This document shows positions 5,010 to 9,158 of a DNA stretch of 11,444 nt, piece by piece. This DNA comes from Eggerthellaceae bacterium (GTDB lineage Bacteria > Actinomycetota > Coriobacteriia > Coriobacteriales > Eggerthellaceae). The stretch is taken from NCBI GenBank assembly GCA_017533165.1, contig JAFXIM010000272.1, forward strand, positions 1 to 11,444, given 5' to 3'. Both the position numbers and the translations under genes were made by a program. Numbering within the stretch: the first letter of the stretch is position 1; each line of letters begins with the position of its first letter. The notes beneath the pieces are model-generated. The model was not told where the DNA came from. It saw only the letters and a program-made list of their open reading frames with translations, and made no database searches.

Positions 5010-5864
5010 ATGGCAGTTGAGTACACTTTCGAGAGCTTCGATGGCATCAAGCTCTACGGCAAGACGGACGCCGTCGATGATCCGCGCGCCGTCATCGTGA
5101 TCGTGCACGGCCTGTGCGAGCATCAGGGTCGCTACGATTACCTCACCATGCGCTTGAACGCCCAGGGTTATTCGGTCTACCGCTTTGACCACCGCGGTCA
5201 TGGCCGCAGCGAGGGCCAGAAGATCTACTACTCCAACTTCGAGGAGATCGCCAAGGACGTCGACGTCGTCGTCGAGCGCGCGCTGGTGGAAAACCCCATG
5301 GCTCCCCTCTACATCATCGGCCACAGCATGGGCGGCTACGCTTCCGCTCTCTACGGCACCATGTTCCCGGGCAAGGTCGACGGCTACGTGCTCTCCGGCG
5401 CATGGACGCGCGACAACAAGGGCCTGACCAAGGCTGCCGTCGAAGCTGACGCACCCGATTTGGTCTACATTCCCAACGAGCTCGGCGATGGCGTTTGCTC
5501 CGACCCGGCAGTCGGCCGCGCCTATGAGGCAGACCCCTATGTCATCAAGGAAATGTCGCTTGGTCTGTTCCGCGCCGTCAACGCAGGTCAGAAGTGGATG
5601 AAGGAAAACGCCGAGCAGTTCGTCGAGCCCGTCATCTTACTGCACGGTGCCGATGACGCCCTGGTTGACGTTACCGACAGCCTTGAGTTCTTCCAGGAGA
5701 TCGGCAGCACCGACAAGAGCATGCGCATCTATGCTGGACTGATGCATGAGATTTTCAACGAGTACGACAAGGATGCCGTCATCGACGACGCCCTCGAGTG
5801 GCTGGCAGGACACGCCGACTTCATCGCTTACGCGTTCGACGCCGGCGAGGAGATCGACGAGTAA
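5010..5864 (+). CDS. Alpha/beta hydrolase, monoacylglycerol lipase-like
   Basis: 284 aa, cytoplasmic, no signal peptide. A serine hydrolase of the lysophospholipase/monoacylglycerol-lipase group (COG2267, Hydrolase_4 type). Oxyanion-side VHGLCEHQGRYDYL at residues 32-45, DHRGHGRSEG at 60-69, nucleophile elbow GHSMGGY at 104-110 (Ser106), acid in HGADDALVD (Asp216), and His246 in LMHEIFNE: a complete catalytic triad. A cap region of about 130-190 gives no specificity clue. AAAGGA sits about 8 nt before the ATG. It lies 33 nt after murB with no terminator between, so it is probably co-transcribed. Its role may be membrane-lipid turnover, but the substrate cannot be read from sequence. Transcription probably ends in the palindrome array downstream. 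Confidence 0.88.
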   Translation: MAVEYTFESFDGIKLYGKTDAVDDPRAVIVIVHGLCEHQGRYDYLTMRLNAQGYSVYRFDHRGHGRSEGQKIYYSNFEEIAKDVDVVVERALVENPMAPLYIIGHSMGGYASALYGTMFPGKVDGYVLSGAWTRDNKGLTKAAVEADAPDLVYIPNELGDGVCSDPAVGRAYEADPYVIKEMSLGLFRAVNAGQKWMKENAEQFVEPVILLHGADDALVDVTDSLEFFQEIGSTDKSMRIYAGLMHEIFNEYDKDAVIDDALEWLAGHADFIAYAFDAGEEIDE

Positions 5865-5880
5865 AGATCGCATTGGCAAT

Positions 5881-5899
5881 ATTGACCTCTTGGGTCAAT
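5881..5899. repeat. Inverted repeat ATTGACC/GGTCAAT
   Basis: Perfect 7-bp arms with a 5-nt loop (TCTTG), 17 nt after the hydrolase stop. It is the first member of the TTGACC-type palindrome array that fills the gap to ddl. Confidence 0.85.
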
Positions 5900-5913
5900 G
5901 AAACATAGGCAGA

Positions 5914-5951
5914 ATGTCAAAAGGACTGACCCAGGTCAGTCCTTTTGACAT
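5914..5951. terminator. Perfect 38-nt palindrome, probable bidirectional terminator
   Basis: Left arm ATGTCAAAAGGACTGACC (5914-5931), 2-nt centre CA, and an exactly complementary right arm (5934-5951). As RNA, either strand gives a GC-rich stem (GGACTGACC/GGTCAGTCC) flanked by A4 and T4, so it can end transcripts from both the hydrolase (plus) and ddl (minus), which converge here. The 18-bp perfect match and tiny loop exceed what termination needs, and the centre is shared with the next palindrome, so another role or a mobile origin is possible. Confidence 0.8.
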
Positions 5952-5973
5952 AACGAGACAGAAAACACATCTT

Positions 5974-6087
5974 GAACTGTCAAATACAAGTACTTGGGTC
6001 AAATAAATGGCATTTCGATTGACCCAGGTCAACCGAAATGCCACCACATCCGAATTGATTGACCCAAGCCGCCAAAATTGACAGTTC
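5974..6087. repeat. Three-level nested inverted repeat of TTGAC half-sites
   Basis: Outer arms GAACTGTCAA (5974-5983) / TTGACAGTTC (6078-6087), perfect 10 bp. Middle arms CTTGGGTCAA (5993-6002) / TTGACCCAAG (6059-6068), perfect 10 bp. Inner hairpin with 17-nt arms 6008-6024 and 6027-6043, one mismatch (A6018/C6033), centre CA, core TTGACCCAGGTCAA. The outer-to-middle gaps are 9 nt on both sides. The inner core matches that of the palindrome at 5914-5951. No gene or T-tract is seen here. Function unknown. Confidence 0.9.
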
Positions 6088-6110
6088 GTCGGCCTGGGCC
6101 CGCTTCCCTC

Positions 6111-7052
6111 CTAAAGACGGAGTGCGTTCTTCACCATGGTTGCACACAGCTCGTTGTAGGAGATGCCTACGGCGCGAGCCGCATCCGGCAGAAGCGATGT
6201 CGGGGTCATGCCCGGCAGGGTGTTGGTCTCAAGCACCCAGTACTCTCCGCTCGGCTCCACGATGAAGTCGGTGCGGGAGACGCCCATGCAGCCAAGCGCG
6301 TGGTGGGCACGGACCGCATCAGCCTGCATACGAGAAGCCAGATCCTCTTCGAGCTCGGCGGGACACACGTGCTTGGATCCACCGGGGGCGTACTTGGACT
6401 CGTAGTCATAGAAAGTGTTCTTCTGCGGAATAATCTCGATGACCGGGAAAGCGCGGGCGTCTTCGTTGCCGAAGACGGCAATGGTGAACTCGCGGCCGGA
6501 GATAAACTTCTCAACCACCACGATGTCATCATGCTCAAATGCGCTGGCGATACCGGGGGCAATTTCGGCGGCGGTCTCAGCCATGTAGATGCCGATGGTG
6601 CTACCCTCGTTTGCGGCCTTGATGACCACGTGCTCGCCCATGGCGGCAACGATGGCGTCAACGTCAATCTCATCACCCTTGACCAGAGTGAAAGACGGCG
6701 GGGTGGGAACGCCGGCGGTGGTGTAAGTGTCCTTAGCCTTAGCCTTGTTCATGGCAAGCGCGCTAGCGAGAACACCGGAACCCGTGTAGGGCAAGTCGAT
6801 GAGCTCGAGAAATCCCTGCAGCACGCCATCTTCGCCGTAACGACCATGCGTAACGAGGAAGGCAACGTCAAAGCCGCCATCGACAAGCTTCTTGAGATCA
6901 TCCTTCTCGGCCGGATCAAGCATGGTTACCTGGAAGCCCTCTTCCTCGAGCGCCGTAAAGACGCCTTTGCCGGAGGTCAAAGAAACCTCACGCTCGCCGC
7001 TGCGGCCACCAGCCAGCAACGCAACGCGGTAATCCTTCGGATTGAATTCCAT
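6111..7052 (-). CDS. ddl: D-alanine-D-alanine ligase
   Basis: ATP-grasp enzyme joining two D-alanines for the UDP-MurNAc-pentapeptide; cytoplasmic. 313 aa, normal for the DdlB type. Motifs: GGRSGEREVSL (15-25, Glu20 for the first D-Ala), THGRYGEDG (68-76), PYTGSGVLASALAMNK (88-103), KAANEGSTIGI (145-155), omega-loop YDYESKY (215-221), GVSRTDFIVE (257-266, Arg260 and Asp262) and ETNTLPGMTPTS (275-286, metal ligands Glu275 and Asn277). Tyr221 in the omega-loop is the residue kept in D-Ala-D-Ala ligases and replaced in D-Ala-D-Lac (VanA-type) enzymes, so ordinary D-Ala-D-Ala specificity is expected. ATG at 7052 is chosen for AGAGGGG at good distance and the MEFNPKDYRVALLAGG start; an ATG 69 bp upstream (7121) lies upstream of the promoter -10 and is rejected. 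The leader can form a GCGCGC-GAT-GCGCGC hairpin (7075-7089). Confidence 0.96.
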   Translation of the reverse strand: MEFNPKDYRVALLAGGRSGEREVSLTSGKGVFTALEEEGFQVTMLDPAEKDDLKKLVDGGFDVAFLVTHGRYGEDGVLQGFLELIDLPYTGSGVLASALAMNKAKAKDTYTTAGVPTPPSFTLVKGDEIDVDAIVAAMGEHVVIKAANEGSTIGIYMAETAAEIAPGIASAFEHDDIVVVEKFISGREFTIAVFGNEDARAFPVIEIIPQKNTFYDYESKYAPGGSKHVCPAELEEDLASRMQADAVRAHHALGCMGVSRTDFIVEPSGEYWVLETNTLPGMTPTSLLPDAARAVGISYNELCATMVKNALRL

Positions 7053-7107
7053 CAGTACATCCCCTCTTGTACGGGCGCGCGATGCGCGCGGGCTAACGAG
7101 CCAGACC

Positions 7108-7113
7108 ATTATA
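7108..7113 (-). promoter_or_regulatory. -10 box of the ddl promoter
   Basis: Perfect minus-strand TATAAT, with the start expected near 7101 and a leader of about 50 nt. The -35 region (TGCAAA at 17 bp) is a poor match. Confidence 0.6.
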
Positions 7114-7190
7114 CCGAACACCGCATGTCTTTTGCAGGCAAGCGCAATGAGCGCAAATGAACGAGCGCGCCTTCCGAATCTGAAGATAAG

Positions 7191-7219
7191 CTGAAACTAT
7201 GCGACACGGTTGATAGAAT
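7191..7219 (+). promoter_or_regulatory. Promoter of the MBL-fold hydrolase gene
   Basis: -35 CTGAAA (7191-7196), 17-bp spacer, -10 TAGAAT (7214-7219). Transcription would start near 7226, with a leader of about 33 nt containing AGAAGG 7 nt before the ATG. Confidence 0.5.
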
Positions 7220-7258
7220 GTTGGGCATTAACCAAGATCGTCGAAAGAAGGTTCGCCC

Positions 7259-8131
7259 ATGAAAATCACCGTGCTTCTCGAGAACGCCACACCCTCCGAT
7301 CGCTACTGCTCCAAGCATGGACTGAGCATGTTCATCGAAGCCGACTGCGGACGCATCCTCTTCGACATGGGACCCGACGGCTCCTTCATCGACAACGCAC
7401 GAGCACTTGGAATTGACGTGACCACGGCTGACCTGGCCGTCATTTCGCATGGCCATTTTGATCACGGCGGCGGTCTGCGGGCTTTCTTGGAAACGAGCGA
7501 GTCAGCTGGACGCAAAGTTCCCATCTACGTACACGAACGCGCCTTCGAGGAGCACCGCGCAAATACGCCCGTCGGCCTGAAAGACATCGGTATCGACCCC
7601 GAGCTGCTAGCCGCCTATCCCGATCGTTTCGTGCTCACTGGCGATGAGCGCACCATCAGCGAGGCCCTTGAGCTCTATGCGGCTGTCGAGATGGCAGAAC
7701 TTGCCCCCGCCTCGAACCGTGTCCTGCTCGAGCGCGTCGACGATGCAGCCGCCAACGCTACCGCAGCCGAGACGCCCACCTTCGCACCCGACTCCTTCGC
7801 CCACGAGCAGACGCTGTTGATCCACGAAGGTGATCGCACGGTGCTGGTAACCGGCTGCTCGCATTGCGGAATCGTGAACATCATGAAAAAGGCCGAGGAG
7901 CTCACCGGCGGACCTCTCGACGCCGTGGTGGCCGGGTTCCACCTGATGAATCCCTCATCGGGCGACGTGGAGGACCCCGCGGTGGTTGCCGCTGTGGCCG
8001 AGTTCATGGCGGCGCGCCCGACCAGGTACTACACGTTCCACTGCACGGGCCTTGCCGCCTACAGCATCCTGCGCGATACGCTGAACGACCGCGTCAACTA
8101 CCTGTACACCAGCAGCGTTATTGAGTTGTAG
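7259..8131 (+). CDS. MBL-fold metallo-hydrolase, COG1237 type
   Basis: 290 aa, cytoplasmic, no signal peptide. Metallo-beta-lactamase fold: ILFDMGPDGSFIDNARALGID at 33-53 (strand-turn typical of the family), metal-binding SHGHFDHGGGL at 63-73 (H64, H66, D68, H69), GCSHCGIVNI at 199-208 (H202), AGFHLMN at 225-231 and the C-terminal TFHCTGLAAY at 259-268 (H261). The layout VTGCSH then GFHL then HCTG matches COG1237, a group containing archaeal enzymes annotated as 7,8-dihydropterin-6-yl-methyl-4-(beta-D-ribofuranosyl)aminobenzene-5'-phosphate synthase. Bacterial members are mostly of unknown substrate, and I do not assign that reaction here. Monocistronic: own promoter, divergent from ddl, convergent with the FKBP genes. 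Confidence 0.85.
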   Translation: MKITVLLENATPSDRYCSKHGLSMFIEADCGRILFDMGPDGSFIDNARALGIDVTTADLAVISHGHFDHGGGLRAFLETSESAGRKVPIYVHERAFEEHRANTPVGLKDIGIDPELLAAYPDRFVLTGDERTISEALELYAAVEMAELAPASNRVLLERVDDAAANATAAETPTFAPDSFAHEQTLLIHEGDRTVLVTGCSHCGIVNIMKKAEELTGGPLDAVVAGFHLMNPSSGDVEDPAVVAAVAEFMAARPTRYYTFHCTGLAAYSILRDTLNDRVNYLYTSSVIEL

Positions 8132-8348
8132 GGCGGTAGGCTCGCGGCGGTCGTCGCGGGGTGGCCATTGCGGGCGGTCAGCTCGAAACGGACTTACGAG
8201 AGACCGCCATGGGCGTACGGCTCCAAGCAATCTCACGCAGCTTCGTTACGGAACCGTCAACCCAGAGCCATTACCGCAGAGACTTGCCGAAACAGTCGAT
8301 CGGGATATTGGCGCCGGGCAACTGCCCCTACGCGCGAAACGGTGGGCT
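8132..8348. other. Non-coding gap after the MBL gene, with one hairpin
   Basis: No open frame here resembles a known protein and none has a convincing ribosome-binding site. One structured element: GGCGGTC (8173-8179) pairs with GACCGCC (8202-8208), with an inner CTCG (8182-8185) / CGAG (8197-8200) stem. No T-tract follows, so it is a weak terminator candidate for the MBL gene at best. The rest shows nothing I can name. Confidence 0.5.
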
Positions 8349-8549
8349 ATATCCAAAAATCGCGCTCGAATCTGCGAGTAACTCCAGTGGTGTATAGGTT
8401 TTATCGCTGACAGAGATACCTCTCGCTCTATTTGCGCAGGTCAGAACGCCGAGCTATCCAAGCGGCGCCCTCAATGAGTGATATAAGCTATACACGACCG
8501 ACTTTACTCGCAGATTGAATGCGAAATTCTGGATCTGCGCAAAAGAGCG
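8349..8549. repeat. Two diverged inverted copies of an intergenic element
   Basis: The left copy (about 8349-8417) and right copy (about 8468-8535) are inverted. Exact anchors: AATCTGCGAGTAA (8369-8381) against TTACTCGCAGATT (8504-8516), and GTGTATAG (8390-8397) against CTATACAC (8488-8495), in perfect register. Weaker similarity extends both ways (ATATCCAAAAAT against AGATCCAGAATTT; TTTTATCGCT against TTATATCACT), giving arms near 70 nt. A second pair, CGCTCTATTTGCGCAG (8424-8439) against CTGCGCAAAAGAGCG (8535-8549), is also inverted. Together they fill the convergent gap before the FKBP stop. No transposase or coding capacity is seen; a REP/MITE-like element is one reading. Confidence 0.8.
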
Positions 8550-8564
8550 ACTTTATGGGTCGTT

Positions 8565-9158
8565 TTAGTGGCAACCGCAGCTGCAAGACTCACCATGGGA
8601 GTGCTCGTGATCGCGGTGGCCATCGTGATTGCGAGCGTGCTCCTCGTGGCCATGCGCGCCGTGACCGTCGCGCGCATGATCATGACAACCACAATCGCAA
8701 TCGTCGTCGTGAACGTGCTCGAAGGAGCCCGGTGCGGCAACTTCAACCAGCTCGATCTCAAAGTTGATGGGCTTACCCGCAAGGAAATGATTGTGGTCGA
8801 GGTAGACAACGCCATCTTCAACCTTGGAAACAAGCACTTGGATCTGCTGGCCGTTCTGAGCCTGCAGGACCACAGGCTCGCCAAGCGGAAGATCCTCCCA
8901 ATTCGGCAGATACTCGCACGGCACCGGCTCCACAAAATCGGAACGCCACTCACCGTAGGCCTCCTCAGGCGCAAGGCGCACGCTTCGCCTCTCGCCGACC
9001 TCCATTTCGGAAACGGCCTTGTCAAAACCCGTAATCATGTGGCCGCCGCCAATGACAAACTCGAGCATCTCACCCAGCTTGTAGCTGTTGTCGAACTCGG
9101 TGCCGTCATCAAACGTACCTACATAGTGAACTGAAACCTTGCTACCGACAGCAACCAT
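8565..9158 (-). CDS. SlyD-like FKBP peptidyl-prolyl isomerase with His/Cys metal-binding tail
   Basis: Prolyl cis-trans isomerase and chaperone, cytoplasmic. 197 aa: FKBP core about 1-70 (VSVHYVGTFDDGTEFD, ITGFDKAVSEMEVGE, APEEAYGE), IF chaperone insert about 71-120, FKBP return LDHNHFLAGKPINFEIELVEV (120-140), then a tail 148-197 with 14 His and 6 Cys. The tail begins with CDCGCH (154-159) and ends with CSCGCH (192-197). E. coli SlyD has a similar Ni/Zn-binding tail ending in CGCH and helps NiFe-hydrogenase maturation; no hydrogenase gene is in the window. The ATG at 9158 is preferred over the one at 9164: AGAAGGG lies 6 nt before it but abuts the other, and the resulting MVA start matches the neighbouring paralogue. 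A -10-like TACTAT lies at 9190-9195. Confidence 0.93.
   Translation of the reverse strand: MVAVGSKVSVHYVGTFDDGTEFDNSYKLGEMLEFVIGGGHMITGFDKAVSEMEVGERRSVRLAPEEAYGEWRSDFVEPVPCEYLPNWEDLPLGEPVVLQAQNGQQIQVLVSKVEDGVVYLDHNHFLAGKPINFEIELVEVAAPGSFEHVHDDDCDCGCHDHARDGHGAHGHEEHARNHDGHRDHEHSHGESCSCGCH

Follow-up and report, generated by a model that had tools for sequence, protein, structure and literature searches.

Small non-autonomous mobile elements of the ERIC, REP and MITE types are generally known as short, intergenic, imperfect palindromes. Transposon ends bound by a transposase can hold repeated sites, as in IS21, each end of which carries two repeats according to the available part of a published account (PMC10122671). 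Stem-loops are enriched in the convergent gaps of the bacteria covered by a survey, as far as its accessible portion goes (PMC1590033), and compensatory changes that switch base pairs are described for intrinsic terminators in the accessible portion of another study (PMC5381666). The locus analyzed here shares features with each of these systems. It resembles bidirectional intrinsic terminators in its convergent position, in a stem flanked by an A-tract and a T-tract, and in hairpins near both gene ends, but differs from them in a shared core, seven units at 19 bp, nested outer stems and short T-runs. As in ERIC, REP and MITE elements, the locus includes an intergenic imperfect palindrome that is short, at about 114 bp, within an array of 220 bp in all; however, no second copy was found in the collections searched and no target duplication was seen. 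Several repeat copies lie close together, as in IS21-type ends, although the gap contains no transposase gene and no matching end was found.

The window, by which we mean the whole 11,444-nucleotide stretch of an Eggerthellaceae contig that was analyzed, contains a 246-bp gap (5865-6110) between two convergent genes, in agreement with the position given for the array in an earlier note on this DNA. The left gene (5010-5864, + strand) encodes an alpha/beta hydrolase of the lysophospholipase-like type (Pfam Hydrolase_4, E 1.4e-64), whose nearest named relatives among the matches listed are Eggerthellaceae MAG proteins; there are also metagenomic proteins with 96-99% identity to this hydrolase. 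The right gene (6111-7121, - strand) encodes a D-alanine--D-alanine ligase, ddl (Pfam Dala_Dala_lig_C, E 5.8e-51), the product of which is 88% identical to an Eggerthellaceae MAG protein over residues 10-336.

We found 12 half-sites of the form TGAC[CA]/[TG]GTCA between 5883 and 6083, close to the roughly twelve TTGAC-type half-sites of the earlier note. When the 246-bp gap was shuffled 2000 times with its dinucleotides kept, the mean count was 1.6 and the highest 7. The densest 205-bp stretches in 462 kb from two relatives contained 6 and 5 half-sites, against 12 here. The main regularity, which is absent from the earlier note, is a 19-bp register: the half-sites form seven units TGKCA-N14-GGTCA, starting at 5874+, 5915+, 5950-, 5978+, 6008+, 6043- and 6083-, all with an exact start-to-start spacing of 19 bp. 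These units take in 11 of the 12 half-sites together with three one-base variants (TGGCA/TGCCA), leaving the half-site at 5883 outside. A repeated site with a fixed half-site spacing is the arrangement looked for in a protein-binding array. The count of seven compares with a mean of 0.004 and a maximum of 1 in 2000 shuffles, a result that overstates the evidence, since the motif was defined post hoc, the shuffles do not keep palindromy, and palindromic partners are counted twice and are not independent, which leaves about four or five independent units. No such unit was present in the 462 kb of the two relatives. The leftmost unit, U1 (5874-5897, + strand, TGGCA-N14-GGTCA), overlaps a small hairpin, ATTGACC/GGTCAAT (5881-5899), the two arms of which (5881-5887 and 5893-5899) are the 7-bp inverted pair already reported.

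Four of the units make up two large palindromes. The first (5914-5951) consists of U2L (5915-5938, + strand) and U2R (5927-5950, - strand), which overlap on TGACCCAGGTCA. It had been described as a perfect 38-nt palindrome, and this is correct for its 18-nt arms but not for its 2-nt centre, CA, which is non-complementary. The second (6008-6043) consists of U4L (6008-6031, + strand) and U4R (6020-6043, - strand) around the same core, with 17-nt arms and one mismatch. The window contains TGACCCAGGTCA at two places only, with 0.03 matches expected when up to one mismatch is allowed, so the common centre reported for the two largest palindromes is real. Their arms, by contrast, are not unrelated as had been claimed: both palindromes have the form TGKCA-N7-TGACCCAGGTCA-N7-TGMCA, that is, two overlapping units each, with TGKCA and TGMCA set off from the core by exactly 7 bases. 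The ends of the arms are therefore related. Between U2 and U4, 2 of 7 positions agree in the seven-base arms. Of the 17 pairs that both palindromes share, 6 carried changes in both partners that preserve pairing, 10 were the same and 1 was broken; such paired changes would be expected for hairpins acting as RNA, although template switching could give the same result.

The second palindrome lies within a larger nested imperfect palindrome (5974-6087), composed of an outer stem, a 9x9 internal loop, a second stem and the inner palindrome. The nested structure had been proposed before and was recovered here, with the outer left arm GAACTGTCAA(N9)CTTGGGTCAA at 5974-6002 pairing with TTGACCCAAG(N9)TTGACAGTTC at 6059-6087. 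The folded strand showed a z score of -8.3, and none of 200 shuffles was equally stable. The outer arms contain U3 (5978-6001, + strand, left) and U5 (6060-6083, - strand, right). These two units sit in two identical 10-nt blocks, matching at 18 of 18 positions in the boxes scored, but only 1 of 9 in the intervening 9-nt spacer, a clustering of mismatches with a chance of about 4e-5 if mismatches were random. The spacers of U1 and U3 likewise match at 1/9 positions; not every spacer pair is unlike, as those of U1 and U5 match at 5/9. The half-sites are thus better kept than the spacers. The U3/U5 spacer lacks complementarity, so that the outer element is not accounted for by pairing alone, and the keeping of half-site blocks without the spacer pairing is what would be expected for DNA sites. 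Judged from these comparisons, the RNA-hairpin reading and the DNA-site reading both seem to apply.

A second large imperfect palindrome, with 47-nt arms that are 77% complementary, was observed in the next convergent gap of the window (8369-8516). Its sequence differs from that of the main array, and it is likewise made of matched blocks around unmatched spacers. The 201-nt fold gave a z score of -5.3, and weak short matches only were obtained, in 13 of 138 family genomes (best E 0.015).

The hairpins in the gap likely have a terminator role, as indicated by the gene-end hairpins of relatives, the form of the 38-nt palindrome and a U-rich tail on the ddl strand. The 38-nt palindrome begins 50 nt past the hydrolase stop. 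With AAAA and TTTT bordering its stem, it is terminator-like on both strands; by eye, TTTT is then followed by GACAT on both strands. The T-run after this stem comprises just four bases, which the predicted fold places in pairs. The U4 stem is followed by ATTTATTTGA, a U-rich tail, on the - strand (the ddl strand) only. A strict scan for intrinsic terminators returned none. When five orthologous gene ends of relatives were folded (hydrolase in G085, G110 and G103; ddl in G001 and G085), a hairpin was present within 170 nt in all five. The hydrolase end of G085 (AAAAGGTCCGGG..CCCGGACCTTTT) and the ddl end of G001 (AAAGGCCGC..GCGGCCTTT) showed A/T-flanked hairpins of the same form as the 38-nt palindrome, and the hydrolase end of G110 an imperfect stem followed by TTTT; the remaining two, the hydrolase end of G103 and the ddl end of G085, had no T-run. 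Long intergenic hairpins were common in relatives, 12 being counted over 191 kb in G085 and 13 over 120 kb in G001. In G110 (L138), TGACCCAAGCGTCAAC, located about 52 nt past the orthologous hydrolase stop, resembles one outer half-site, which may be chance.

A parallel to the shared core was found in relatives. In G085, long intergenic palindromes share TGTTTCACGTGAAACA, which we take to be the consensus of the ParB site parS, with different arms, and a simple ORF call places two of three in convergent gaps. Exact parS 14-mers numbered 33 in G085 and 3 to 7 in five other relatives, as compared with 0 for the reversed control. The 33 sites of G085 (L229, L280-L288), in a 2.4-Mb draft genome, exceed the highest examples, 20-23, given in the accessible part of a review (PMC7333895). 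Seven of the 33 form palindromes that reach at least 14 bp to either side of the centre (23 in the longest), and some are terminator-like. The orthologous murB and hydrolase genes of G085 lie on a parS-rich contig holding 15 of the 33 sites; in G110, G099, G103 and G100, the four other relatives whose hydrolase matches head the listing, hydrolase and parS are on different contigs. Six relatives yielded 128 palindromes, both within and between genes, over 536 kb; among these, parS was the commonest recurring core (19, 2 and 5 copies), a proportion that means little because 15 of 17 regions of one sample had been picked for parS matches; one other core was seen three times. The telling point of the survey is the existence of terminator-like palindromes with a shared core. 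A second repeated palindrome core in G085, AACAGCCCAGTGGGCTGTT, was observed at L225, L281 and L282, in two cases with similar upstream sequence.

The parS palindromes and the array are alike in having one palindromic core with different arms, some of them at gene 3' ends or in convergent gaps. They differ in that the core here is unrelated, its dyad centre is imperfect and extra outer half-sites are present. As parS was not found in the window within 3 mismatches, the parallel is one of design and not of membership. By analogy with parS, the most recurrent palindrome core in these relatives, the shared core suggests a protein site built into terminators. The same survey bears on the earlier note's argument that a common core would not be expected of one-off terminators: the core sharing is indeed beyond chance here, but the argument is weakened by terminator-like palindromes of relatives that share parS.

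The earlier note had proposed looking in relatives for the core flanked by variable arms; among 395 genomes from the order, no convincing copy came to light. With up to 2 mismatches allowed, the palindrome pattern was present in 6 of these genomes, in each case at exactly two mismatches, as compared with 3 for the reversed control, and the outer-unit pattern (up to 1 mismatch) in none. A structure model of the array with strict filters, for which there was no positive genome as control, gave no hit in 138 family genomes. BLAST of the gap returned nothing credible, with matches in 4 of the 395 genomes at E 0.01 or better. The best of these, 34 nt in G139, is ascribed to chance, as it sits in an open reading frame, presumably acpS; the other three were 19-25 nt long without an array in the surrounding 240 bases. 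In viral contigs, the palindrome pattern was absent and the outer-unit pattern occurred 40 times, and in none of 211 loci, a set in which 40 of 56 units were present by selection, did two units lie within 200 bp of each other. No copy of the array was obtained from the phage and plasmid records examined. Taken together, the pattern, structure-model, BLAST, phage and plasmid searches indicate that the array does not occur widely in the 395- and 138-genome sets, to which the host's genome does not belong. No description of such an array was found in the accessible parts of the literature searched.

Several other candidates were set aside. TTGACCCAGGTCAA as a dispersed core was present in at least 119 viral stretches, a number judged by estimate to be chance for a 14-mer. 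Nine of the 138 family genomes contained a match to TTGACCCAGGTCA, which was repeated only in G073, at five places; this was judged a coincidence, and the five places lie in an insertion-sequence-like repeat with other arms. The five copies of that repeat (L127, L132-L135), which we take to resemble an IS21-type left end, hold the hairpin CAGGCGTTGACCCAGGTCAACGCCTG, mostly followed by a T-run, with two changes in one copy. An integron attC site has a similar bipartite stem with an unpaired spacer, but inspection against the R-box consensus that we assumed showed no R-box, and the genes here are convergent. A Crp/Fnr-type box, taken by us as TTGAC-N4-GTCAA, fits the core at 6019-6032 and nearly fits the other core, but the remaining half-site pairs differ in centre spacing. 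A DNA-uptake signal was considered for TTGACCCA, which occurs four times in the window, all within the gap.

The earlier note had left three options, an operator cluster, a REP/MITE-like family and a structured RNA. Of these, the site cluster gains from the 19-bp register, REP/MITE gained no support from the genomes and records searched, and the RNA has only its fold. It is possible, if rather doubtful, that the gap holds ordinary convergent terminators and nothing more, the repeats having arisen by local duplication and the palindromes having been tidied by template switching, with no protein involved. The enrichment of stem-loops in convergent gaps, the compensatory pair switches known for intrinsic terminators, the gene-end hairpins of relatives and their abundant long hairpins all agree with this account, as do the same order of U1/U2 and U3/U4 and the partly matching spacers of U1 and U5. 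When the two halves of the array were aligned plainly, with half-sites unmasked, the score was 45, as compared with at most 41 for shuffles. Duplication predicts alike spacers, however, and those of U1 and U3 and the arms of U2 and U4 are unlike while the half-sites are near identical. Local duplication as the sole cause was among the readings set aside. The non-complementary U3/U5 spacer also speaks against terminators only.

In our view the array is unlikely to be what remains of a MITE-, REP- or ERIC-like mobile element, small and non-autonomous, whose inverted ends are bipartite and which may be present as two nested copies, although the form of the nested palindrome, the repeated sites known from transposon ends and the second large inverted repeat in the next convergent gap would fit such an origin. 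Related copies, expected of such elements, did not appear in the genomes of the order, among which the nearest species may be missing, and no target-site duplication was seen by eye. A stable structured non-coding RNA is highly improbable: the predicted fold is very stable, but it forms on both strands, as with any palindrome, no promoter-like site was found in 5600-6400, and the window gave no Rfam match at the gathering score, with three weak miRNA matches far under the cut-offs in 5800-8600 at a relaxed threshold.

Our tentative preference, in which we have limited confidence, is for convergent terminators built on a binding array of a putative DNA-binding protein. The gap would be the common 3' end of two convergent genes, with hairpins stopping transcription from both sides: the 38-nt palindrome would end hydrolase transcription, perhaps acting on both strands, while ddl transcription would stop at the 6008-6043 hairpin, which has the U-rich tail. 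These hairpins would rest on bipartite DNA sites, TGKCA-N14-GGTCA, whose half-sites share a strand and are separated by 19 bp, or roughly two turns of the helix. Read most simply, the array would be the binding array of a putative protein, for which parS inside terminator-like palindromes of relatives offers a parallel by analogy only. Such a protein array is plausible. Several points count against this reading: sites lying well away from a promoter would need a non-regulatory role, the searches yielded no second locus with the array, and the palindrome centre CA is not a perfect dyad. We consider it quite improbable, though worth stating, that the gap is one station of lineage-specific TGKCA-N14-GGTCA sites with the core TGACCCAGGTCA, serving an undescribed chromosome-organizing or partition-type protein and built into convergent terminators as parS is in relatives. 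The regularity of the array is unusual; the case for its being a new kind of system is thin. If a protein does bind here, terminators and protein sites would occupy the same DNA, tying chromosome organization to transcription ends. The parS survey provides a known case in which this can be tested, namely, whether ParB at a parS within a palindromic terminator affects termination.
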